Made by a program: the position numbers and the translations under genes | Source of the DNA: a virus | Length of the DNA stretch: 28,597 bases | IMG/VR virus record: IMGVR_UViG_3300042888_003148 | Coordinates: 1 to 28,597 of that record | Strand: one strand, 5' to 3' | The notes under the pieces: generated by a model | The model's input: the letters and a program-made list of their open reading frames with translations, nothing else | Databases searched by the model: none | Told to the model about the DNA's origin: nothing | Part shown: one piece after another, positions 16,433 through 28,597 of the stretch | Numbering within the stretch: the stretch's first letter is position 1 | How the letters are laid out: every line of letters begins with the position of its first letter

Positions 16433-18559
16433 TTATCCGAACGTTGCTCCTGTTGGTTCGATTGTGAAATCTAATACAACAAATTCAATTGTTTTAGCTG
16501 GTTGGATAAATATCTGTCCTATTAATTGATTTCTATCAACTACATCTGCTGTGTTGTTAGTATCGTCCATTACAACTCTGTATGCATAAAGACCTTGTCT
16601 TTGTACTACTGATTCAAGATATGGATTAACCGTCGCTAAGAACTTATTTCTAGTTGCTATAGTATTTTGTTCAAATACTAAGTTTCTTGCTTGGTCACCA
16701 ATGAACTTCTTAAGTTCTATAAGTAAACGTCTTACGTTAACTCTATCTAATGCTGATGCTTTAGTTTGTAATGTTTTTTGTCCGAATACTGATATACCTG
16801 ATCCTGGGAATGTAGCAATTGGATTAACTTTAGCTGAGTAAAGAGTATCTCTATCACCTTTAGTTAATTTTCTTTCTGCTTGAATTACTCCTCCGATTCC
16901 TCCTCTTACTAATCCTGCTGGTGCAAACCATGGTGCTGATGAAGCATCTGTGAATGCATATACTCCTGGAATTACTGTTCCTGCTGGAGTCCATTCGTTT
17001 CTACCTGTAGCAGATTTGATTTGTAACCAAGGCCAGTAAGTTGCTGCATATGAACTATTCAATGAAGCTGCTTCTGTTGTTACGTTAGCTACTACCTCTC
17101 CCTGTTCTACTAAGTCTACTACTGCAATACAATCTCCTCTATTTTCTGCTAAAGCAATAAATGCGTTTACTGTTGAAGTGAAAGCACTATTTTTGTAGAT
17201 TAAACCCGGTGTTGATACTATGTTGAATTGATATTCATCTTTATTTGCAAGTAATGATAGAGCTACTGTATAGTTTGCTGCTACTAATCCTTGTGCATCT
17301 GTAGATCCATTTGTAATATCTCCAAAGAATTTAGCTCCTGCTTTTACTGCTCCTAGTGCTCCTTGAAATGATCCTGAGTTTACTTGCGGTAAAGATGCTG
17401 CAAAAGTAATACCGTTAGCATCTGTATTAACTGTGATACCGTCATTTGCTAGGTAGTAGTTAGTTGGTAAATTAACTGCTGATACTCTAATATAGTTAGA
17501 AGCATTTGGATACTCACCTACTGGGTAGTTATAAGATGTTGAACCATCTGTACCTACTTCAATATGTTGGTTACCAATTACTTTCTCAATATAATTATCT
17601 GAGTTTGGATCAAGGTTTACATTAAATGTCTCTAGTATAGTTTTGTTATTTGTACTATCATTTCCCTGTCTTACTAGTATTGAGAATGTTCCTAATGCAT
17701 TATTTACATTTGCAATTTCCCATCTTACGTTATCTGCTGATCCTGATACTAAAGATCCGTCTGAGTTTAGTGCTCCTGAGTCTGTAGCTGATGTAGAGTT
17801 ATTGTAAAGAATTCCTTTTCCTAAAGTTTTTATTGCTATAGTAGTTGTTCCTGTTGCTCCACTGAAGTTTGTAGTAGTAGCCCCAACTACACTTGTATAT
17901 CCGTTTAGTGTACTTGATAAAGTGTTAGTTCCTACTAAAGAAGCAGTCGTATTGAAAAGCAATCCTGTAGTTCCAGATGCTGCTGCTTTAATATTCCCAA
18001 GTGATGCACTGTATAGTGCTACTGATGAGCTAAAATTAAAAGCTGTTACAATTGCTGTTATTGAATCTGCTGGTGTTGATCCTGAAGCTACAAAAAGAGT
18101 TGTTGGTGTATTTGCTGGAGGAGTGCTTCCTGTTACTGCAATGTTAATTCCATTAATTGAGAAAGATCCTGTTGGTGTAATAAATGGTGCTAAACTTGCA
18201 CTACTAATTGTAAGTGAAGCTGTTGTTGCAAGAATTCCACTTTGGATATTTGTACTAGTTGCTCCGTCATAAGTTCCTGATACAATTCTAGTTACTATAG
18301 CTGTTTGTCCACCATTTTGAAAATAGTTTTTTACTGCTACAGAAGTAAGGAATTCATACTGTCTGTTAGAAGCTGATAAAAAGGTTTCACCAAACTTTCT
18401 TACGTAGTCACTATATGATGTAACAATAAGAGGCTGATTGTCCGGCCCTTTAACTGTTGGTCCAACAAATGCTGCTCCTGCCTGAATTGGTGCTGGTGTG
18501 ATATAAGAGGTGTCGTTTTCTCTTGTATATACTCCTGGAGAGATAATTGATTCTGCCAT
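16433..18559 (-). CDS. 18: Contractile tail sheath protein (gp18-like)
   Basis: The 708-residue protein begins with the sheath signature SPGVYTRENDTS and AAFVGPTVKGP, and carries SYSDYVRKFGE near 47-57. The C-terminal third is the conserved sheath core, with YWPWLQIK, PWFAPAGLVRGG, INPIATF-like VNPIATFPGSG, RLLIELKKFIGDQARNLVFE and a final VVLDFTIEPTG. About 110-450 is a long Ser/Thr/Gly-rich insertion of beta-type sequence, probably outward-facing domains. T4 gp18 is 659 residues, so the size fits. Sheath contraction drives the tube through the host envelope. It has its own TATTTATA motif and follows a hairpin. Confidence 0.95.
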   Translation of the reverse strand: MAESIISPGVYTRENDTSYITPAPIQAGAAFVGPTVKGPDNQPLIVTSYSDYVRKFGETFLSASNRQYEFLTSVAVKNYFQNGGQTAIVTRIVSGTYDGATSTNIQSGILATTASLTISSASLAPFITPTGSFSINGINIAVTGSTPPANTPTTLFVASGSTPADSITAIVTAFNFSSSVALYSASLGNIKAAASGTTGLLFNTTASLVGTNTLSSTLNGYTSVVGATTTNFSGATGTTTIAIKTLGKGILYNNSTSATDSGALNSDGSLVSGSADNVRWEIANVNNALGTFSILVRQGNDSTNNKTILETFNVNLDPNSDNYIEKVIGNQHIEVGTDGSTSYNYPVGEYPNASNYIRVSAVNLPTNYYLANDGITVNTDANGITFAASLPQVNSGSFQGALGAVKAGAKFFGDITNGSTDAQGLVAANYTVALSLLANKDEYQFNIVSTPGLIYKNSAFTSTVNAFIALAENRGDCIAVVDLVEQGEVVANVTTEAASLNSSYAATYWPWLQIKSATGRNEWTPAGTVIPGVYAFTDASSAPWFAPAGLVRGGIGGVIQAERKLTKGDRDTLYSAKVNPIATFPGSGISVFGQKTLQTKASALDRVNVRRLLIELKKFIGDQARNLVFEQNTIATRNKFLATVNPYLESVVQRQGLYAYRVVMDDTNNTADVVDRNQLIGQIFIQPAKTIEFVVLDFTIEPTGATFG

Positions 18560-18701: not shown

Positions 18702-18974
18702 TTACTCTACTACTTCAGCTTCTTCTTCGTAAGGAGTAAATTCTCCTTTTTCTAGATTGATAGACCCTTTTCCGTAAGCAGCTTCTAATGCTTCAGCTAA
18801 TGTTTTTTCTTCTTGTCCTAATTCTTTCAAGAATTCTTCTGCGTTAGCTCTTCTTGATTTTAATTGAATTTTTAATAATTCAATTTGCCCAAACTCTACT
18901 GTAATAGCTTGACTTTTGTTTTGAATGTCTTGAATTTGTTTCAATTCCTCTTGTGATAACTTTTTAGTTTCCAT
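18702..18974 (-). CDS. Small coiled-coil protein, paralogue of the 87-residue protein at 21743
   Basis: The 90-residue protein is a charged helix for most of its length (EELKQIQDIQNK... EEFLKELGQEEKTLAEALEAA) and ends YGKGSINLEKGEFTPY plus an acidic tail. The C-terminal block matches HGQGTINLEEKCFIPY of the 87-residue protein at 21743-22006, and both have the same length and helical layout, so they are paralogues. No named family is recognised. Its position just before the sheath gene suggests a tail assembly or regulatory factor. GTTAC precedes the ATG. Confidence 0.75.
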   Translation of the reverse strand: METKKLSQEELKQIQDIQNKSQAITVEFGQIELLKIQLKSRRANAEEFLKELGQEEKTLAEALEAAYGKGSINLEKGEFTPYEEEAEVVE

Positions 18975-19450: not shown

Positions 19451-19480
19451 ATTTTATTTTATTTTATTTTATTTTATTTT
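19451..19480. repeat. (ATTTT)6 pentanucleotide tract
   Basis: Six perfect tandem ATTTT units (AAAAT on the coding strand) begin within the stop codon of the DUF2061 gene and extend towards the TATTTATA motif of the next gene. The tract is the only perfect microsatellite of this length noticed in the window. Confidence 0.95.
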
Positions 19481-19680
19481 TTTAATCCGAATTTAATATA
19501 CCCATACCATACTCTTTCATGTAGAAAGTATATTACTGGTTTTATTATCAATTCCCCTAATCCTAATAAAGAAGCAACTTTAAGAGAACCTCCTATACAG
19601 TATGCAGCTATTATAGTTGTTAATGTTCCTAATATTCTGTAGGTAATAGTTTTAAGTAAATGTCTCTTATAATCTACCAT
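19474..19680 (-). CDS. DUF2061 small membrane protein
   Basis: The 68-residue protein begins with a basic KRHLLKTITYRILGTL segment and has two hydrophobic helices (about 12-28 and 34-52) ending LHERVWYGYIKFG. This is the recognisable DUF2061 pattern (R...LK...R...T...Y, then E...K...Y..HERVW). The protein should sit in the inner membrane. From memory, bacterial DUF2061 genes often neighbour sulfate-activation genes such as cysC/cysD/cysN, which fits the APS kinase encoded nearby; its function is not established. Its start overlaps the nucleotidylyltransferase gene by 14 bases, so the two are translationally coupled. Confidence 0.85.
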   Translation of the reverse strand: MVDYKRHLLKTITYRILGTLTTIIAAYCIGGSLKVASLLGLGELIIKPVIYFLHERVWYGYIKFGLKK

Positions 19681-20065
19681 CTTCTTTCATTTGTTTTCTG
19701 ATTTTGGTAGCAGATACTTCTCTAATAGCATCTGGTGGTATATGTTCTATTACGTCGTACCCTATTCCTCTTCCAATGTTTACAGATTCAATATCAGGTA
19801 TTACAATAATCTTTACTTTCCCCTCTTGTATTAAATCTTTTAATTCTTCATTTAGATTTAAAACTACTTCTTGGGCTGTCCAAGGATTTTTCTCATCAGG
19901 TTCAATATCTCTAATACAGATTAAAACATTTTTACCTTCCTCTAGTCTTTGGTCGATTAACCATCGATGCCCTGAATGCCATGGTTGCCAGCGTCCTATG
20001 TACATTGAGTATTTTATATCATTATACGATGATTGAAATGCGGCTTGTGCTAAATACTTTTTCAT
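19667..20065 (-). CDS. HxGH nucleotidylyltransferase (cytidylyl-/adenylyltransferase-like)
   Basis: The 132-residue protein has the signature GRWQPWHSGHRWLI at about 24-37. Its HxGH pair (HSGH) is the ATP/CTP-binding element of the nucleotidylyltransferase superfamily. A C-terminal SATKIRKQM segment matches the ISxTxIR phosphate-binding motif. It should transfer a nucleotidyl group from an NTP to a phosphorylated acceptor. The substrate cannot be read: CTP/sugar-phosphate, NMN or sulfate activation are all conceivable, because ATP sulfurylases share the HxGH fold but are much longer. It overlaps the HAD gene by 4 bases (ATGA) and the DUF2061 gene by 14, within the sulfation/glycan island. Confidence 0.8.
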   Translation of the reverse strand: MKKYLAQAAFQSSYNDIKYSMYIGRWQPWHSGHRWLIDQRLEEGKNVLICIRDIEPDEKNPWTAQEVVLNLNEELKDLIQEGKVKIIVIPDIESVNIGRGIGYDVIEHIPPDAIREVSATKIRKQMKEDGRL

Positions 20066-20400
20066 ATTCCTTTATTTCTTTCTAAGTTAATTGCTATTGC
20101 TCGTTCTCCTGGGTTGTTTGGATCCATATCATTAAGTAAATATCTAGGTCCTCTTTCAATCCCCATTACAAGTTGATTGAATGGTATATCATTTTCTTTT
20201 AATTCTTGTATAGTATGTTCTCTTAAATACTCAGGTCTTGCTGTTGTTAAAACAATACAATGTCCTTGTTGATGCTTTTCTTGAAGATATTGTTTTGTAG
20301 AATCAATGACTTGGACCTTACTAGTTTTATATGTTTCAAATTTGCGGTATATAAAAATGGTTCCGTCTATGTCTACAAAGTAGGTATTATTTTTTTCCAT
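20062..20400 (-). CDS. HAD-superfamily phosphatase
   Basis: The 112-residue protein is a small HAD phosphatase. Motif I is FVDIDGTIF with nucleophile Asp10 and Asp12. Motif II is VLTTARPEY around Thr52/Thr53, followed by an LLNDMDP motif typical of the acidic motif IV region, and it ends INLERNKGI. That ending resembles small HAD proteins found in surface-polysaccharide loci, where they dephosphorylate sugar phosphates. It has no cap domain, so a larger substrate or a partner protein is possible. The gene overlaps the APS kinase gene by 1 base (TAATG) and the nucleotidylyltransferase gene by 4 bases, indicating tight coupling of the three. Confidence 0.8.
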   Translation of the reverse strand: MEKNNTYFVDIDGTIFIYRKFETYKTSKVQVIDSTKQYLQEKHQQGHCIVLTTARPEYLREHTIQELKENDIPFNQLVMGIERGPRYLLNDMDPNNPGERAIAINLERNKGI

Positions 20401-20831
20401 TAAATTTGATTTATTATTTTTGATACTGATTGTTCAGGAGCATCTTCTGTTGTATCAATATCTATAAAATTTTCTAAAGGTGCTTGATACCCTTTTACTG
20501 CAAAATTATCTCTTTCTCTAGGTTCTGATGTGTGTATGTAAATTTCTACAATAGTATTTCCTAATAGTTGTTTGAATTCTTCTCTCTGATCAATATACGG
20601 AGATACTAGCGATACTATAACGTCATGTCCTTGGTTATGTAGATAATGTGATATCTTCTGTGCAGCATCAACATTCATGATTCTTCCTTTAATTGAAAAA
20701 TCCTTATTAGTAAATAAATCTCTTAAATCATCTCCATCTACTCTATATGCGTTAGGAAGTAGAGTTTCTTTTAACAAATCTGCTAAAATGGTCTTACCAT
20801 GTGATGGCTGTCCTGTAAACCAGTATATCAT
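20400..20831 (-). CDS. cysC: Adenylylsulfate (APS) kinase
   Basis: The 143-residue protein has the CysC pattern: a P-loop GQPSHGKT at about 7-14, VDGDDLRDLF at about 31-40, and VSLVSPYIDQREEF at about 73-86. A KGYQAPLENFIDID segment follows, and then EDAPE. APS kinase phosphorylates adenylyl sulfate to PAPS, the sulfuryl donor for sulfotransferases. It is shorter than typical bacterial CysC (about 200 residues), and the C-terminal lid region is compressed. Two sulfotransferase genes lie 2.4 kb upstream in the same operon-like run, giving PAPS an obvious use. APS itself must come from host ATP sulfurylase unless the neighbouring HxGH protein supplies it. The start is ATG, 12 bases after the GT9 gene. 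Confidence 0.88.
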   Translation of the reverse strand: MIYWFTGQPSHGKTILADLLKETLLPNAYRVDGDDLRDLFTNKDFSIKGRIMNVDAAQKISHYLHNQGHDVIVSLVSPYIDQREEFKQLLGNTIVEIYIHTSEPRERDNFAVKGYQAPLENFIDIDTTEDAPEQSVSKIINQI

Positions 20832-20843
20832 AGTTATATTTTA

Positions 20844-21719
20844 TTATTGTTTATCAATTGATTCTATAATTTTATTTATATCAAATACCTCACTTGTACT
20901 ATTATAAGGAATAGATGATATATCCTGAGATAGGTTGAAGGGTTGGTATATTGAGTTTTGTAGTTGTGGGGGTTTTGTGAAAGGGTTAGCTAAAACGTTA
21001 TCGTGTAGTTCATATCCAAATATCTTAGGATTTGTAGTGGACCAACATACAGTAGATTTTACTCCCATAGCGGCGGCTAGGTGTTGACCAAATGAATCTA
21101 TTAATAAACGTTTTTTAGATAATTGTAATAAAATAGCTATACTTCTAAATCCATCTAATGCTTGTAGAGTATCAGGATAAGTGTATTGATCCTCTCTCTT
21201 AATGTGAACTATTGTATAATCCTTCTTATAGTGTTGTATTACTTTATTAACAATAGATTCTGGTATATCTCTTGTCCATGCGTATTTGAATCCTTGTTCT
21301 TGCGGTCCTCCATTTGATTGGAGTACCATTATAGGCTTTTCCACATCATAGAAAGGTTTGTAATACTCTATTTCAGGTTGAGTTATGTATAATTCTGGTT
21401 GTTCATTATCGTACTGTAAATCATAAAGTTTACACCAGGTAGTAAGTAGATATTCTTTTTCAGTTATGAAAGAAGTATGGTGGTATGGATCTTGTACAAA
21501 GATTTTACAATCTTGGTTCTTAATGTACTTTAAGTACGCTCCTCTCATTTGGTCTATTTGAAAACATTCATTTAAGTTGGGGTCATTTAGAAATACATCA
21601 GGATATCCCGTAACAACTACAATATGGGCATCTTTGTGATGTTTTCTTATAACCTTAGTCATGGCTGTAGCCATAATGTTTTTTCCTAGACCTCCGTCTA
21701 TTTGGAATAATATATTCAT
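20844..21719 (-). CDS. GT9 / heptosyltransferase-like glycosyltransferase
   Basis: The 291-residue protein has a GT-B layout. It starts with IDGGLGKNIMATAMTKVIRK, the Gly-rich GLG element of GT9 enzymes. A late DSFGQHLAAAMGVKSTVCW then NPKIFGY matches the SGPMHLAAALG...DP nucleotide-sugar-binding motif of heptosyltransferase-type proteins. Such enzymes add sugars to lipopolysaccharide cores or other acceptors. Donor and acceptor cannot be read from the sequence. It is short for the family (about 330-350), and the usual Ser/Gly-Pro pair is replaced by SFGQ, so activity should be tested. It lies between the small coiled-coil gene and the APS kinase gene. Confidence 0.75.
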   Translation of the reverse strand: MNILFQIDGGLGKNIMATAMTKVIRKHHKDAHIVVVTGYPDVFLNDPNLNECFQIDQMRGAYLKYIKNQDCKIFVQDPYHHTSFITEKEYLLTTWCKLYDLQYDNEQPELYITQPEIEYYKPFYDVEKPIMVLQSNGGPQEQGFKYAWTRDIPESIVNKVIQHYKKDYTIVHIKREDQYTYPDTLQALDGFRSIAILLQLSKKRLLIDSFGQHLAAAMGVKSTVCWSTTNPKIFGYELHDNVLANPFTKPPQLQNSIYQPFNLSQDISSIPYNSTSEVFDINKIIESIDKQ

Positions 21720-21742
21720 CTATAACTGTATCTAAATTGTTT

Positions 21743-22006
21743 TTAGTTTTCCAAGTATGGAATAAAACATTTTTCTTCTAGGTTGATTGTACCCTGACCG
21801 TGCTTAATAGATATTGTTTCCAATAGTTTTTGTCTCTGATTTGTTAAGTCATTTTTTTTCATTTCTAGAATATACTCTCTTTGTTGGAGATTTAATTCTT
21901 CTATTTTTAGTAAACCCATCTGATATACTATCTCATTCCAATTGCTGTCTAGAGTAGTAAAATCAAAATATTCTTCTTCGGTTAATTGTACTGCTTGTTG
22001 TGTCAT
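21743..22006 (-). CDS. Small coiled-coil protein, paralogue of the 90-residue protein at 18702
   Basis: The 87-residue protein has a polar N-terminus (TEEEYFDFTTLDSNW), a long charged helix (LLKIEELNLQQREYILEMKK) and a C-terminal block HGQGTINLEEKCFIPY. This block matches YGKGSINLEKGEFTPY of the protein at 18702-18974. No function is known to me. It is inserted between two glycosyltransferase genes, separated from its paralogue by the whole left half of the island, which suggests that the duplication was involved in building the island. It starts at an ATG 2 bases upstream of where the glycosyltransferase stop lies. Confidence 0.72.
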   Translation of the reverse strand: MTQQAVQLTEEEYFDFTTLDSNWNEIVYQMGLLKIEELNLQQREYILEMKKNDLTNQRQKLLETISIKHGQGTINLEEKCFIPYLEN

Positions 22007-22008
22007 AT

Positions 22009-23262
22009 TTAATTTGTTATAAATGATTTTAAATTATTACTACTAAGGGAATAATGAGTAGCAAGAGTAATGGTTCTATCCCAGCTGGGTTGTATTGTTA
22101 TATTATAACTAGCCTTAGTATTCATTAATTCTAGGCAACATTCATGTAGTATATGAAATTGTACCTTTTCTAAATAAGCATGAAAATTTTTGTATTCTTC
22201 TCTATAGGAATTTACACTACTTTGTATAATTTCAATTCTATCCTCTTTTAGTAAATGTCTATTTTGTTTTAAATATTTTTTATAAAATAAAACTTTTGCT
22301 TCATCAAAAACTATAATCTTAATATAATCAAATTTCTCAAGTAAAGAAATATAATTTATTTGAGAAGAAAAAATCGAAACTAAATACTTGTCTTCTTCCT
22401 TTGTAGACTCTTTAACTTTATCAAAATGAGATGAATGTACACCTACTTCATTACCATTTTCATCTAAATGTCTACATAGAACTGATGGGATTAGTTTGAT
22501 TGTTTTACCCTGTTCTCTCATTTTATAACTTATATACCAGTCTGGTCCTTTTTTGTTGAATTCTTCTTCAACATCATTTAATGGAAGTATGTTTTTTAGG
22601 TATTCAGTTGGTAGAAGTATACAGCCATTTCCAACAAATCCTACCTCATTATTGTTGCAATCAATATCAACTAAATCATCTAAAGTACAACTTTGCCATT
22701 TCTCTGCTGATTTACTAACTACTAATTTTCTTTTAAGCTCTTGTTTTCCTTTTATTAAAGAAGGAGGAGTCCACCCTTTACAAAAATATAATCCAGATAC
22801 CATTCCTACTTCGGGATTGTTTAATAGTAGTTGACTCATCTTAGTTATACTAAAATTTGGCGGTATTGTGTCATCATCAACTATGTGTATGTATTTATTG
22901 TTATTAACTACTTCTGATATGCCTCTGTGTAGGTTTTCTGCTGTTGATTTATGTTTGTCAGTAGAATTTTCAATTCTAGTTAAGCTTTCCCACTGTTCCC
23001 AGGTACTTTCATTTCGTACTTTAGGTACTCCTTCTACTACCACAATATCCTTATACTTTTGTCTTAGTCCATACTGTTCAATTTTTTCTTTAAACAAGGA
23101 CTCAAAGTCTTTATTAAAACCTTTTACAAAATATAATGTTGGGGTATCAAATTGATGAGGTATTATAACTTCTTTAAAATAATCAAATAAAGGATCAATA
23201 CAATTTTCTCTACCTATAAGTACAGTTAATATTCCTAAAGTGTATTTATTTTCCAAATTCAT
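22009..23262 (-). CDS. GT-A-type glycosyltransferase
   Basis: The protein has about 417 residues. Features of GT-A/GT2-like enzymes are LGILTVLIGRENCIDPLF at the start, IHIVDDDTIPPNF with the metal-binding DDD at about 129-131, FVGNGCILLPTEY, DWYISYKMREQGK (acceptor/catalytic region) and VLCRHLDENG with a possible metal-binding His. The C-terminal 130 residues are helical and unassigned. A longer reading from a TTG at 23268 adds two residues; I chose the ATG at 23262 because it is canonical and overlaps the sulfotransferase end by 17 bases. It should transfer a sugar from a nucleotide sugar to an unknown acceptor, plausibly the glycan that is later sulfated. Confidence 0.75.
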   Translation of the reverse strand: MNLENKYTLGILTVLIGRENCIDPLFDYFKEVIIPHQFDTPTLYFVKGFNKDFESLFKEKIEQYGLRQKYKDIVVVEGVPKVRNESTWEQWESLTRIENSTDKHKSTAENLHRGISEVVNNNKYIHIVDDDTIPPNFSITKMSQLLLNNPEVGMVSGLYFCKGWTPPSLIKGKQELKRKLVVSKSAEKWQSCTLDDLVDIDCNNNEVGFVGNGCILLPTEYLKNILPLNDVEEEFNKKGPDWYISYKMREQGKTIKLIPSVLCRHLDENGNEVGVHSSHFDKVKESTKEEDKYLVSIFSSQINYISLLEKFDYIKIIVFDEAKVLFYKKYLKQNRHLLKEDRIEIIQSSVNSYREEYKNFHAYLEKVQFHILHECCLELMNTKASYNITIQPSWDRTITLATHYSLSSNNLKSFITN

Positions 23263-23863
23263 AACCAAAATAATCTATATCTTTTTTATACTTTTCTTCT
23301 ACTAAGGCTTTAGTTTCTTCAGTATAGTATTTCCAATAAGGTAAATGTTCTGTTTTATTTAAAACTGGGAGTGTTCTTCTTGGTAGGTTAATATTATCAC
23401 ATACTATATTAAAATCTTCTTGAAGATTTTCAAATCTACCTATAAAAATAGAAGGATCTATATTTCCATCTTTATATTCAATCCACTCTAATCCTGGTAA
23501 GTCCCAAAGATCAGTATTTTTGTGGTTTTCTTTAATATACTGAGTAAAGCTGGTATTGGGGATATCAGTTCTGTTTTTTTTTATATTAAAAAAGTAATCA
23601 GATAATTTTCTATCCCAAGGATTTCTTACAAAACAAAATTTAAAATAATTCTCCCAATTATTTTTTATTAAAATAGTTTCAGGATCATATTGGGCAATTT
23701 GAAGTCGTTCGTTAGGATGTATTTTACTATTATATCCTAATTCAAATAATTCTCTTACTGTAAGGTGGGATTTTACTCTTTGAAATAAGGAGGTTGATAT
23801 ACTTCTTCCTCCTGTTTTATTTATATGAATAAAAATGCATTTGTGTTCAGTTGATATAACCAT
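23246..23863 (-). CDS. Sulfotransferase, family 2-like
   Basis: The 205-residue protein has FIHINKTGGRSIS at about 11-23, the 5'-phosphosulfate-binding loop of the sulfotransferase family 2 type (K-T-G-G), and FCFVRNPWDRKLSDY at about 76-90, the 3'-phosphate-binding motif with Arg80 and Ser88. A further IFIGRFENLQEDF segment matches the conserved region that follows. The family transfers sulfate from PAPS to hydroxyls of carbohydrates. The acceptor is unknown. It is 9 bases from the second sulfotransferase gene and overlaps the GT-A gene, so sulfation and glycosylation genes appear co-transcribed. No signal peptide or membrane anchor is present, so it should work in the cytoplasm, unlike eukaryotic Golgi relatives. 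Confidence 0.87.
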   Translation of the reverse strand: MVISTEHKCIFIHINKTGGRSISTSLFQRVKSHLTVRELFELGYNSKIHPNERLQIAQYDPETILIKNNWENYFKFCFVRNPWDRKLSDYFFNIKKNRTDIPNTSFTQYIKENHKNTDLWDLPGLEWIEYKDGNIDPSIFIGRFENLQEDFNIVCDNINLPRRTLPVLNKTEHLPYWKYYTEETKALVEEKYKKDIDYFGYEFGK

Positions 23864-23872
23864 ATTAAGTTT

Positions 23873-24694
23873 TTAGTAATTACCCCATAAGTTCCAATCT
23901 AAATTAGGATACTCATTTTTTAATGAATTAACATCATTCTTAAAAATATTTGAAAAATTATCATAATATGAATTATTAAATTCCTCACTATATATTCTTT
24001 TATGATGAATTCCAAAAGTAACATCATTGGAAAATGGTTCACCTCCTAAAAATTCCATAATCTTATTGTGTTCCTCCAATGGATTAGCCAACATTGATTC
24101 TTGTAATAATACGTAAATATTATTAGGTGTAAAATATTCTTCCCATTTTTTTATTCTATGAAAATAAGTACTTCTTTTAATCAACTTATTTTCTTCATCA
24201 TTTACTTTTAGTGCATCTTCAAATGATATATTATAGTATTTTTCACCCCAAAAAGGATTTTGGTTTTGGATGTGATTCCAATGACTATAGGCTCGTTTTA
24301 AGGGATCTCTTAGAGAAATAATTAATTTAATATTACCTAAAGAAAATTTTATTCTAGAAGCTAATCCTTCTGGGTTGTAAAAATAGTTAGGACTAACTTC
24401 ACCTCTAAATGGTTTATCTACATCGAAAAGTTTTTCATAAAATTTGATTCCTTTTTCATAATTTACATTAAAAAAATCAATTTCTTTATTGTCAGGTCTA
24501 CTTAATCCTCCTTTAAAATCACTTATACTAAATTCACTATCGTTAATAACTCTTTGTTTAGTTTCTTCATCTGGGCAGTAGACTTGATGGTGTTGGTTTA
24601 GATTATGATGTAAAGCAGTACTCCCACATTTCATACCCCCTAATACTAAAAAGTTAGGTAAAGAAGTATTAATTTCTTCTTTATTTTCTACCAT
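23873..24694 (-). CDS. Sulfotransferase, heparan-sulfate-type fold
   Basis: The 273-residue protein has LVLGGMKCGSTALHHNL at about 16-32, the 5'-PSB loop with Lys22. It also has RGEVSPNYFY (about 97-106), and IISLRDPLKRAYSHW at about 125-139, with Arg129 and Ser137 for the PAPS 3'-phosphate. This is the pattern of NDST/3-OST-like carbohydrate sulfotransferases. It belongs to a different branch from the neighbouring 205-residue sulfotransferase, so two distinct positions or acceptors may be modified. The start overlaps the small gene upstream by 7 bases. The protein lacks a signal peptide and should be cytoplasmic. Confidence 0.88.
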   Translation of the reverse strand: MVENKEEINTSLPNFLVLGGMKCGSTALHHNLNQHHQVYCPDEETKQRVINDSEFSISDFKGGLSRPDNKEIDFFNVNYEKGIKFYEKLFDVDKPFRGEVSPNYFYNPEGLASRIKFSLGNIKLIISLRDPLKRAYSHWNHIQNQNPFWGEKYYNISFEDALKVNDEENKLIKRSTYFHRIKKWEEYFTPNNIYVLLQESMLANPLEEHNKIMEFLGGEPFSNDVTFGIHHKRIYSEEFNNSYYDNFSNIFKNDVNSLKNEYPNLDWNLWGNY

Positions 24695-25106: not shown

Positions 25107-25526
25107 TTATAAAGGACATAATTCAGCTCCTCCTCCTAACCATGCAGTTCCTGACCATTGTCTACTAGCAAACCCATTACTGTACCAATTAGCATTCGCA
25201 AAAGTAGTTAAACCTGCATTTGAATATAGGTTTTGACTAAAATTAAATTCATCTACAGCTTGATAATAAAAGTTGTCTGATGCAAAAAAACAAGCATCTT
25301 CGGCATTCTCACCAAATCCTAATAAATATTCATATGACTCTAAATCACTTCCGTTATAAAAATCACTAAATTTTATTTGCCCACTTGTTGGTATATTAAC
25401 ATTTGTACCTGTATTAGGTACATTTGCTCCACCTTTATAGTATTCTGATATAGCTATAGGATTTGAACCTCCAAACTCTGTTTGAATCATGCTGGAGCTT
25501 ATTGGACCACTACTTGGTAAAGCCAT
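25107..25526 (-). CDS. Small fibre-associated, probable receptor-binding protein
   Basis: The 139-residue protein has an N-terminal half of a type common in phage tail proteins: ALPSSGPISSSMIQTEFGG, ISEYYKGGANVPN, then IPTSGQIKFSDFYNG (about 46-60). The C-terminal half has two cysteines, aromatic residues and LYSNAGLTTFANANWYSNG followed by SGTAWLGG. This resembles small domains found at the ends of Bacteroidota adhesins and phage fibres. I infer a host-recognition tip or fibre-attachment role; no enzymatic motif is visible. Its ATG overlaps the fibre stop codon (TAATG), so it is translationally coupled to the fibre. Confidence 0.7.
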   Translation of the reverse strand: MALPSSGPISSSMIQTEFGGSNPIAISEYYKGGANVPNTGTNVNIPTSGQIKFSDFYNGSDLESYEYLLGFGENAEDACFFASDNFYYQAVDEFNFSQNLYSNAGLTTFANANWYSNGFASRQWSGTAWLGGGAELCPL

Positions 25527-28500
25527 TATAATTTAGATTTAAGTTCATCAATTTGTTTTTGCTGATCTTTAATTGCTTCAATTAATAGAGGGATAATTTT
25601 TTCATAATTAACAGCCTTATATCCATTATCTCTAGTAGTTACTGCTTCTGGTAATATTGCTTCTATTTCTTGGGCTATAACACCTACATCTCTACCTTTA
25701 TTTCCATGTATAGTTTGAATTTCTTCTTGGGTTAAAGGTTTCCAATCAAATGTGTTACCACTAACTCCTATTAATTTACATAAAGCATTTTTAATAGGTT
25801 GAATATTTTCTTTTAATCTATAATCAGAAGTTGCAAATGCTACAACATCATTACTAGCATCAATTCTACCAGTTGTAGTATTCATAGTAGTAGTTCCACC
25901 AACTTGTAAATGGCATGCTACTGTAGCATTGTTCATATAAGTAGTAGATCCACTAGTTGATGTTAAGCTAGATCCTATAGCAAAGGAACAGGCATGAGTA
26001 ACAGTGTTACTTAGTCCACCTAAAATACCAGATAAACTTCCTGACGCTATGTTACTTCCACCACCTCCTATAAAACTACATTCTCCTTTTGCTTGGTTGG
26101 AAACACCACCTCCTACTATTGAGTAACTTCCTGATGCTTGGTTACTATTACCACCTGCTATTGTTGATATATAACCTATTGCACAGTTAGCATTACCACC
26201 TGCTATTGTTGATATATAACCTGTTGCTTGGTTACTGACACCACCTCCTACTGTTGAGTAACTTCCTGATGCTTTATTAATGACACCACCTCCTACTGTT
26301 GAGTATTGACCTGATGCTTGGTTTAAAACTCCACCTAAAATAGAAGAAAATATTCCTGAAGCTAGATTTTTACATCCACCTCCTACTGTTGGGTAGCTTC
26401 CTGTTGCTTGGTTTTCATTACCACCTGCTATTGTTGAGTATTCACCTGTTGATTTATTAAGAAATCCACCTCCTACTGTTGAAAGTAATCCTGTTGCTGA
26501 ATTTGATTGACCACCTGCTATTGTTGCTGATTGGTTTGTTGCTCTGTTATTATAACCACCTCCTATTGTTGAGAGATAACCTGTTAATTGATTATCATAT
26601 CCACCTGCTACTGTTGAGTATTGATTTGTTGCTTGGTTATTTTGACCACCTGCTATTGTTGAGTATGTACCTGTTGCGTAGTTATTTTCACCACCTCCTA
26701 CTGTTGAGTAACTTCCTGATGCTTTATTAATGACACCACCTCCTACTGTTGAGTAACTTGCTGATGCTTGGTTACTTTGACCACCTCCTACAAAAGAGCA
26801 ATTTCCTGATGCTATGTTAGATACTCCTCCTGCTATTGTTGATGATGCTCCGGTATTGGTATGTCCAGAACCTATAGTTAATTTTGTAGAACCTAATATA
26901 TCTCCAACTACATGTAGTTTTGATGTTGGAGTTGTTGTTCCTATTCCTACGTTACCCCCAATATCAATCCTCATTCTTTCAGAACCTCCTGCTTTTACAA
27001 TAAAATTGTAAGAAGCTTCAATACCTTCCCAACCTAAACTTAGTGTTTGAGTTTGATTTAAAGGTCTTAATACAATAGCATCAAAACTATCGTTCGTTGA
27101 AGAAACTACGTCTAATCTTTTTAAAGGATTTATTGTTCCTATACCTACAGTACCATCTTGAGTAATAGTCATTTTTGTAGTTCCAGAATCGGCATTATTA
27201 TTCCAAGCACCTACGTAGAAATTCAATATGTTTTTATTTGCACCAGTTGCATATGATTCAGGTCTTATTTCAGCTAAATGTGAAATTGCATTTCCTCCTC
27301 CAACATTCATATCCCACAATAGTGAAGCACCGGCATCAATACCAGTTCCTGCAGCACTTAGTCTAATATTTCCATCAGTAGATGCTCTTAAACCTACTGT
27401 TAATTTACTATCAGGCGCCGTAGTACCAATACCTACGTTACCTGCTGAGCTTACTACTAATCTGGTATTCTGATTAGATCCATCAACATCTGCTGAAATT
27501 AGTGAGAATCCTGAGTTTGATATGCTTGCTATTCCTGTTCTCAGTATTGTATGACCTCCTTCACTGTTAACAATACTCATTTGAGAAGTTGTTGTAGACA
27601 GTGCTCCTAATGTTGTTAATCTTGAAAATGGTGATGTTGTTCCTATTCCTACTTCACCTGTAGTTTTTACTGTTAAAACCGGAGAGAATGTATTACTTGT
27701 TGATATAGTAGTACCGCTTGAAACTCTTAAATCAAAAGAACTCTGAGCAAATGCTAAGAAGGGTTGAGCTCCAGAGAGTTTAACAAATCCTAATCTAGGT
27801 GTTGCTTGGGCATCAACACCCATATATGACCCTTCTGAGTTTATGTTAACACTTCCTGAAACAGTTAATCTTTCTGATGGACTTGTTGTTCCAATACCTA
27901 CGTTACCACTAGAAGAAATAAACATTTTAGTAGAATTGTTTGTTTCAAACTGTAATGATTGATTATCATTGGTTCCTAGTGTTGCTATTGTACCAAAACT
28001 GTTTCCATTTTGTACAAATGCATTTGTACCTCCGTTTAAGAATGAAGATGTTAATGCAAATGAGGCAGTAGTTGTTAGTAGGTTTGTTGATGGGTTGTAT
28101 GTAAAAGTTGAAGTATCAATTTGAAGATTAGTATTCCCAGCCGCTTGTACAAAAACCGGGTAATAGGTACTACTAAAAGAAGGGTTATCAGTTATTTTTG
28201 AATTTACAGATACAGATGCACTTACTGCCCATGATGAAGTTCCAAATAAAGAACCTGTAAATGAAGTTGCATGTACGTTTCCACTTACTTGTAATTTCCC
28301 TAAGGTTGGAGTTGTTGTTCCAATACCTACGTTACCATTATTTAGTACGTGGACAACAACTGCATCAGTATTATTCTTTAGAGAGAAAATCGGACCTGAT
28401 CCTATATTTTGTGCTACTAAAGTTGAACTATTTACCGAATTATTTGTTGCAACTATTGAACTTGAGTTGGCAGCTCCAGCGTCTATTGTTGGACCTCCGT

Positions 28501-28597
28501 TTGAATAGGCGTATATTGCTGTACCGTTTATTCCTGTACCTGTTCCTGCACTTGTAACTGTAAGTCTTGCTGCTGGTGTTGTAGTTCCTACCATCAC
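25526..28597 (-). CDS. Tail fibre with S74 chaperone domain, 5' end outside window
   Basis: The frame is open to the right edge, so the N-terminus is missing; 1023 residues are visible. The first 580 contain at least seven V-G-I-G-T-x-x-P segments, each followed by a basic residue and a beta-strand (e.g. NVGIGTTTPTSKLHV), a layout common in Bacteroidota fibres. Residues about 585-869 hold 19 copies of a 15-residue repeat of the form STxGGGxxNxAxGxY. The C-terminal 100 residues are a peptidase S74 intramolecular chaperone with SDYRLKEN at about 924-931 (Ser924/Lys929 are the expected dyad) and the GVIAQEIEAILPEAV and NYEKIIPLLIEAIK segments. The domain trimerises the fibre and then cuts itself off before Ser924. 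Confidence 0.9.
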   Translation of the reverse strand: MMVGTTTPAARLTVTSAGTGTGINGTAIYAYSNGGPTIDAGAANSSSIVATNNSVNSSTLVAQNIGSGPIFSLKNNTDAVVVHVLNNGNVGIGTTTPTLGKLQVSGNVHATSFTGSLFGTSSWAVSASVSVNSKITDNPSFSSTYYPVFVQAAGNTNLQIDTSTFTYNPSTNLLTTTASFALTSSFLNGGTNAFVQNGNSFGTIATLGTNDNQSLQFETNNSTKMFISSSGNVGIGTTSPSERLTVSGSVNINSEGSYMGVDAQATPRLGFVKLSGAQPFLAFAQSSFDLRVSSGTTISTSNTFSPVLTVKTTGEVGIGTTSPFSRLTTLGALSTTTSQMSIVNSEGGHTILRTGIASISNSGFSLISADVDGSNQNTRLVVSSAGNVGIGTTAPDSKLTVGLRASTDGNIRLSAAGTGIDAGASLLWDMNVGGGNAISHLAEIRPESYATGANKNILNFYVGAWNNNADSGTTKMTITQDGTVGIGTINPLKRLDVVSSTNDSFDAIVLRPLNQTQTLSLGWEGIEASYNFIVKAGGSERMRIDIGGNVGIGTTTPTSKLHVVGDILGSTKLTIGSGHTNTGASSTIAGGVSNIASGNCSFVGGGQSNQASASYSTVGGGVINKASGSYSTVGGGENNYATGTYSTIAGGQNNQATNQYSTVAGGYDNQLTGYLSTIGGGYNNRATNQSATIAGGQSNSATGLLSTVGGGFLNKSTGEYSTIAGGNENQATGSYPTVGGGCKNLASGIFSSILGGVLNQASGQYSTVGGGVINKASGSYSTVGGGVSNQATGYISTIAGGNANCAIGYISTIAGGNSNQASGSYSIVGGGVSNQAKGECSFIGGGGSNIASGSLSGILGGLSNTVTHACSFAIGSSLTSTSGSTTYMNNATVACHLQVGGTTTMNTTTGRIDASNDVVAFATSDYRLKENIQPIKNALCKLIGVSGNTFDWKPLTQEEIQTIHGNKGRDVGVIAQEIEAILPEAVTTRDNGYKAVNYEKIIPLLIEAIKDQQKQIDELKSKL
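25529..25828 (-). other. Peptidase S74 intramolecular chaperone domain
   Basis: This segment encodes the last 100 residues of the fibre. The cleavage motif is SDYRLK, with cleavage expected just before Ser924. The last part is a coiled coil ending in DQQKQIDELKSKL, as usual for the trimeric release domain. Confidence 0.85.
25991..26845 (-). repeat. Nineteen tandem 45-base repeats in the fibre gene
   Basis: Nineteen units of 45 bases (15 residues) encode STxGGGxxNxAxGxY-type repeats, followed by a partial twentieth. The periodic V-G-G-G and N-x-A-(S/T)-G positions suggest a trimeric beta-roll like YadA-type adhesin heads. The segments at 26239-26305 and 26689-26755 are identical over 67 bases, exactly ten units apart. 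Confidence 0.9.

Follow-up and report, generated by a model that had tools for sequence, protein, structure and literature searches.

A 28.6-kb viral DNA record (IMG/VR record IMGVR_UViG_3300042888_003148, positions 1 to 28,597; the whole stretch is referred to here as the window) carries on its minus strand a run of sulfation and glycan modification genes. The core of this run encodes a short-lid adenosine 5'-phosphosulfate (APS) kinase (APSK; positions 20400..20831, 143 amino acids), a HAD phosphatase (20062..20400, 112 amino acids), an HxGH nucleotidylyltransferase (NT; 19667..20065, 132 amino acids), and a small DUF2061 membrane protein (19474..19680, 68 amino acids). It is likely that this core is a phage factory for 3'-phosphoadenosine 5'-phosphosulfate (PAPS), with NT acting as an unrecognized ATP sulfurylase and PAPS being used for glycan sulfation. 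In the proposed scheme, NT, an HxGH adenylyltransferase of about 115 to 130 amino acids, would convert sulfate and ATP to APS, and APSK, whose gene overlaps its neighbor in the cassette, would convert APS to PAPS. HAD may then remove the product 3'-phosphoadenosine 5'-phosphate (PAP), DUF2061 may anchor the enzymes at the membrane, and two sulfotransferases with one or two glycosyltransferases would use PAPS, most likely to produce a sulfated glycan on the virion or host surface. A broader proposal, which we regard as probable on balance, is that NT represents a third, unrecognized ATP sulfurylase family present in viruses, SAR11, Marinimicrobia, Nitrospirales, and some Bacteroidota, that it fills the SAR11 aprBA gap, and that phages have joined it to APSK in a portable cassette, reduced to the minimum, that provides PAPS to sulfate glycans.

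Conservation of the core was assessed in the best 80 loci of 411 IMG/VR stretches related to the window APSK, many of them truncated by contig ends. NT lay downstream of APSK on the same strand in 76 of the 80, an association beyond chance. Where NT directly followed APSK, the two genes overlapped in 36 of 37 pairs; HAD stood between them in 38 loci, and DUF2061 came after NT in 66. Four loci had no NT reading frame, and two of these end shortly after the kinase gene (L060 387 bases and L080 720 bases past APSK, with a cut NT detectable by tblastn in L060). The conserved unit is APSK-(HAD)-NT-DUF2061 plus accessory transferases. The initial annotation had described the entire run as a single sulfation island, and as a conserved unit that description was rejected, as only the four-gene core recurs and the sulfotransferases and glycosyltransferases differ among loci. 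Its PAPS and sulfation logic is supported, and was strengthened because NT appears to be part of sulfate activation and not an unrelated gene. The gene overlaps it listed in the core are also correct: TAATG between APSK and HAD at 20400, ATGA between HAD and NT at 20062-20065, and 14 nucleotides between NT and DUF2061. Many cassette loci (L012, L026, L030, L033, L043, L053, and others) adjoin a queC-type gene (c15), a thioredoxin-like gene, and carbamoyltransferase genes, which we read as a second modification island.

Genomic association in cells suggests that NT makes APS. Among the best 80 of 468 NT relatives from a scan of bacterial and archaeal genomes, 74 lie beside or are fused to an APS-type enzyme: an APS kinase or kinase fusion in 44, AprA in 26, and CysH in 4, with one representative each of AprA, AprB, and CysH confirmed by NCBIfam. 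An APSK-type gene stands just upstream of NT in 39 loci (one gene intervening in seven), and five loci encode a kinase-NT fusion (L105, L118, L102, L156, and L158). Of these, the kinase halves of L105 and L118 were compared with TIGR00455, and both exceed its cut-off. The 26 loci with AprA in the same locus are from SAR11, and CysH precedes NT in 4 Nitrospirales loci. By a strict script, 6 of the 80 had no APS-type neighbor, one of which (L084) has an APSK hidden Markov model (HMM) match. For L108, one of the four Nitrospirales loci with CysH, where the open reading frame caller dropped NT, the match was taken from the genome scan. The SAR11 fusions (L156, 3116-3889; L158, 7569-8342) follow a groEL-like gene, and the gene next to the L156 fusion reads by eye as a P-loop sulfotransferase, with no Pfam match at 0.001.

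Genome content was also compared. In 50 NT-bearing genomes hand-picked from the 80 loci, Sat was found in 7, CysN over cut-off in 2, and neither in 41, although many are single-cell or metagenome assemblies, making these absences soft. In 117 evenly drawn Pelagibacterales genomes, NT (E≤1e-10) was present in 84 and AprA over cut-off in 83; 78 genomes had both, 6 had only NT, 5 had only AprA, and 28 had neither. Weaker NT matches in this sample (1e-5 to 1e-4) are probably CoaD-like and were left out of the count, and in one NT-only genome (G145) the contig with NT also bears a fragment of AprA. The two genes were within 6 kb of each other in 36 of the 78 genomes and not in the other 42; therefore, linkage alone is insufficient to explain their co-occurrence. 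Classical Sat (PF01747) was found in 6 of the 117, and a short Sat variant of 344 to 351 amino acids with an HTRNVPH..H motif was seen in Pelagibacterales genomes at L173 and L174. A passage in PMC10356861 states that most SAR11 are without ATP sulfurylase.

Among 196 sampled Flavobacteriales genomes, many of them incomplete, CysD reached E≤1e-60 in 124 and exceeded its cut-off in 110. APS kinase exceeded its cut-off in 84, with a partial gene in one more, and NT was present in 6. All six NT-positive genomes had an APS kinase and lacked both cysD and Sat, and NT was found in none of the 77 genomes having both APS kinase and CysD. These six were already known from the NT scan, though they had not been chosen for lacking CysD.

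The window run also contains candidate enzymes for using PAPS. The first sulfotransferase (ST1; 23873..24694, 273 amino acids) scored over gathering thresholds for PF00685 (E 1.3e-14, 54.7 bits) and PF13469 (6.9e-11, 43.2 bits), and phmmer placed it closest to the PDB bacterial sulfotransferase 3rnl (6.7e-14) and to heparan sulfate 3-O-sulfotransferases. The second (ST2; 23246..23863, 205 amino acids) scored over gathering for PF03567 (9.1e-12, 46.1 bits) and matched the PHROGs family phrog_3347, "Galactose-3-O-sulfotransferase," at 2.6e-24; it had no match in PDB. A GT-A-like, family 2-like glycosyltransferase (22009..23268, 419 amino acids from TTG) matched PF13641 at 2.3e-7, and its reported 17-nucleotide overlap with ST2 holds provided that its start codon is the ATG at 23262. 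The label that did not stand was "GT9," given to a possible but unconfirmed GT-B glycosyltransferase (20844..21719, 291 amino acids). This protein had no Glyco_transf_9 (PF01075) match at E≤0.1, only one of ten relatives matched that model weakly (E 0.014), and the GT9 profile had a single PDB match, at E 0.96. Counting the window, 16 of 82 clustered loci contained a homolog of the GT-B candidate. Apart from this label, the gene run is real, with its genes at the positions first given and its families supported gene by gene by Pfam, PHROGs, and NCBIfam.

Sulfotransferases were sought near the cassette in several ways. Pfam-supported sulfotransferase families lay within 10 kb of it in 23 of the 80 viral loci, or in 34 when c33 was included, a sulfotransferase-like cluster counted apart because it is without Pfam support (best PDB match 0.0074 to glucansucrases, with the CurM sulfotransferase at 0.35; the one member compared with Pfam matched none). 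As a control, relatives of the sheath were taken whose records extend 3 kb or more upstream; among these, PF13469 matched at E≤0.001 in 3 of 3 cassette-positive records (1 of 3 over cut-off) and in 0 of 39 cassette-negative records. Pfam models were used in this repeat because the first HMMs were built from cassette loci, and L198 was excluded because the same record holds the cassette-bearing L064. Six extra cassette-positive records, hand-picked mostly for known sulfotransferases, were kept outside the control count; five matched at E≤0.001, four of them over cut-off. Among large cassette-positive records, PF13469 or PF03567 was over cut-off in 7 of 22, and at E≤1e-3 in 10 of 22; the comparison of 7 of 22 with 0 of 8 large controls was not significant (p 0.14). 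In cells, two or three ST1-like genes occur near NT in Flavobacteriales (L109, L113, L114, L122, L126, and L154).

Some cassettes have no sulfotransferase close by, which favors a different use of PAPS, in which it would serve host sulfotransferases, sulfur assimilation, or modification of proteins or small molecules. Such a role is compatible with the PAPS-making half of the proposed scheme. We consider it rather unlikely, because the window run itself holds two sulfotransferases together with glycosyltransferases, because ST1 is near glycan sulfotransferases, and because the APSK-NT pairs of Marinimicrobia (L083 and L098) have DegT, epimerase, polysaccharide-synthesis, and hexapeptide genes around them. 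With glycan sulfation as the preferred use, the target would be a glycan of the virion, for which the placement of the run between fiber and sheath genes speaks, or one of the host envelope.

The kinase of the window is an APS kinase family member by Pfam (PF01583; E 6.2e-17, 62.5 bits against a gathering threshold of 21.1), and its profile matched PDB APS kinases with a best E of 2.4e-14. The P-loop, DGDxxR, and the R..N of the substrate site were all retained on alignment with canonical CysC, but the usual lid is absent. Lidless kinases also accompany NT in Marinimicrobia L083 and MGIII L101, L102, and L103, and lid-bearing kinases are paired with it in L105, L109, L118, L123, and L133. One NT family therefore serves both kinase types, and a shared substrate is the simplest assumption. 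The missing lid, the many cassette records without a Pfam sulfotransferase, and the carbamoyltransferases and other modifiers among the neighbors could instead indicate that APSK and NT make some other 3'-phosphonucleotide-activated group, not sulfate, for another glycan decoration, much like the phosphoramidate pathway of Campylobacter. This is unlikely given that R..N of the APS site is retained, that the NT family is paired or fused with canonical lid-bearing APS kinases (L105, L118, and L109), and that NT also accompanies AprA and CysH, enzymes with APS or PAPS as a substrate.

Identification of NT as a sulfate-activating enzyme has to be set against its sequence and predicted fold. Its only Pfam match at E≤0.1 was PF01467 (E 9.1e-5), and the nearest sequence profile was the first half of archaeal NadM. 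A structure model built from 56 relatives (pLDDT, the predicted local distance difference test score, of 89.7) is a HIGH adenylyltransferase with a CoaD/NadM fold, with structural matches at Z 9.9 to CoaD and 9.2 to NadM. This model, from a wider alignment, replaced a first one (pLDDT 78) that had no Foldseek match under E 0.001 and included ATP sulfurylase chains among its matches, the highest being a PAPS synthetase at Z 6.9; such chains are not among the 50 matches listed for the second model, which excludes nothing. Across the 56 relatives GR.Q..H.GH, GR..GY, and S...IR are invariant, and NT also keeps R52 (at least 90%), P61, and a P(D)I block followed by GR..GY; the core of these motifs is retained in SAR11 copies. 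The HIGH-superfamily fold of Sat, with HxxH and IS(G/A)T motifs, is present in NT, and hhalign of NT against seven Sat sequences placed IRD on GRD and ISAT.IR on ISGT.VR with a probability of 75%. The IRD/GRD alignment is compatible with a sulfate site without being proof of one. In a tree of NT, 25 of 28 phage copies fell in one weakly supported cluster (87/57) that includes two cellular rows, the three remaining phage copies grouped with L085, and the phage and cell labels required 4 changes.

NT thus resembles archaeal NadM and CoaD in its HIGH-superfamily fold and GRxQPxHxGH motif, and differs from NadM in having its own motifs (IRD and PDIxSxNYGRGVGY) and in the company of APS enzymes. 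The idea that NT is a nicotinamide mononucleotide (NMN)-type adenylyltransferase (NMNAT) and that the kinase acts on nucleosides or nucleotides, the two forming a NadR-like cassette for salvage of nicotinamide adenine dinucleotide or another cofactor, draws on this likeness and on a kinase-NT fusion beside a NADAR gene in Stenotrophomonas phage Bhz60, but it was rejected as very unlikely because NT scored 41.4 bits against the archaeal NMNAT model (TIGR01527; curated cut-off 181.2) and matched its first half only, because 74 of the 80 cellular loci hold an APSK-type kinase, AprA, or CysH, and because NT in the Flavobacteriales sample occurs only in genomes with APS kinase and without CysD.

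For the remaining core proteins, assignments are more tentative. HAD matched PF08282 (E 9.6e-6) and fell below the gathering threshold of HAD_PNKP (PF25109; E 3.8e-5, 24.3 bits against 27.6), and its profile matched Pnkp1 at 8.7e-5. Its nearest relatives are PNKP-type 3'-phosphatases, in keeping with an enzyme that would strip the 3'-phosphate from PAP, a role we offer as a guess that is less probable than not. A polynucleotide 3'-phosphatase was also considered, and no RNA-repair partner kinase or ligase was seen in the run. DUF2061 matched PF09834 (E 1.6e-17, 64.1 bits against a gathering threshold of 23.1). Relatives of it are fused to an APS kinase in L112 and L133, with the kinase of the L112 fusion over the NCBIfam cut-off, and in 20 cysC loci hand-picked from the 77 Flavobacteriales genomes with APS kinase and CysD, DUF2061 immediately preceded cysC in 4 and lay within 3 kb in a fifth. 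These fusions and this adjacency tie DUF2061 to sulfate activation; no DUF2061 paper on sulfate was found among publications judged by title.

Several observations weigh against the proposed roles of NT and the cassette. Of the 22 large cassette-positive records, 15 had no sulfotransferase over Pfam cut-off, and the closest large contig to the window (L002) had none, though it starts at APSK and is missing the sulfotransferase region of the window. Two viral contigs (L068 and L070) continue past APSK yet have no NT. APSK scored 64.1 bits against TIGR00455, below the equivalog cut-off of 138.7, and the lid segment KGLYKKARxGEIxxFTG is absent, leaving APSK 19 residues shorter there than canonical CysC. 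No PF01747 or other Sat model was matched by NT, which is closer to NadM/CoaD than to Sat in both sequence and fold. SAR11 NT is on a very long branch, and its activity may therefore differ in direction or substrate; the kinases of the SAR11 fusions L156 and L158 are divergent and at most putative APS kinases. NT and Sat co-occur in four Nitrospirales genomes, the five AprA-positive Pelagibacterales genomes without NT are likewise without Sat, and two Flavobacteriales genomes (G200 and G234, the latter with a partial kinase gene) have neither CysD nor NT. Gene order is the same in the six NT-positive Flavobacteriales, which are probably closely related, and the Fisher p values for the NT association counts (3e-16 and 6e-8) ignore phylogeny. 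Finally, distant kinase-NT fusions in two cultured Stenotrophomonas phages lie away from annotated sulfation genes. These fusions (L275, phage Bhz60, 5596-6336; L274, phage DLP6, 6638-7369) have a YYGRDVGY motif, and the one in Bhz60 adjoins NADAR and MazG-like genes. They correspond to phrog_10255 ("kinase"), which has the same two domains as the cassette, with NT carrying GRDVGY, but belongs to another kinase subfamily and has no annotated sulfation gene in the 12 to 14 kb seen. Their role may be different.

Compared with known systems, the cassette can be likened to Sat or CysDN plus CysC, as in bifunctional PAPS synthase: the proposed order runs from sulfate to APS to PAPS, the two steps are adjacent or fused, and HxxH and IS(A/G)T motifs are shared. 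It differs in that NT is small and matches no Sat model, the kinase is lidless, and the genes are phage borne. The viral Gal-3-O-sulfotransferase family matched by ST2 is entered in PHROGs as a single enzyme and not as a PAPS-making cassette. In Campylobacter, the Cj1415 CDP-amidate kinase pathway likewise pairs an APS-kinase-like enzyme with a nucleotidyltransferase for glycan decoration. That pathway differs in using another nucleotidyltransferase and is not known to involve a sulfotransferase.

If the proposal is correct, NT would be a new family of enzymes catalyzing a reaction central to the sulfur cycle, masked by profile matches resembling NMN adenylyltransferase. The ATP sulfurylase gap of most SAR11, as described in PMC10356861, would be answered by one protein of 126 to 130 amino acids in the SAR11 loci seen. 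Hundreds of viral contigs would bring their own sulfate activation, which is sensible if hosts often lack it; the 84 of 196 Flavobacteriales genomes with APS kinase over cut-off, many genomes being incomplete, bear on this. The proposal also predicts sulfated glycans on the virion or host surface, a phage trait for which no matching paper was found, as judged by listing. Literature searches, which left most subscription literature outside and in which absence is weak evidence, returned no paper on a novel ATP sulfurylase; none joining APS kinase, phage genomes, and sulfotransferases; none linking ATP sulfurylase, nucleotidyltransferase, and sulfate assimilation in Nitrospira; and none on APS kinase and sulfurylase in Marinimicrobia.

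The window also carries T4-like structural genes. As the initial annotation had placed it, the run lies between a fiber-like gene (25526-28597), which by eye has numerous GG..N.A.G repeats and an S74-type C terminus, and the sheath gene (16433-18559), whose product is 61% identical to the sheath of Flavobacterium phage immuto. The 26 kb surrounding the immuto sheath gene contained none of the cassette genes. Within the run, a small coiled gene of 87 amino acids (21743..22006, minus strand), unmentioned in the initial annotation, shares a BLAST cluster with its paralog before the sheath, a gene of 90 amino acids (18702-18974) that has a 73% match in immuto. The run may have been inserted at a site marked by this possible duplication.

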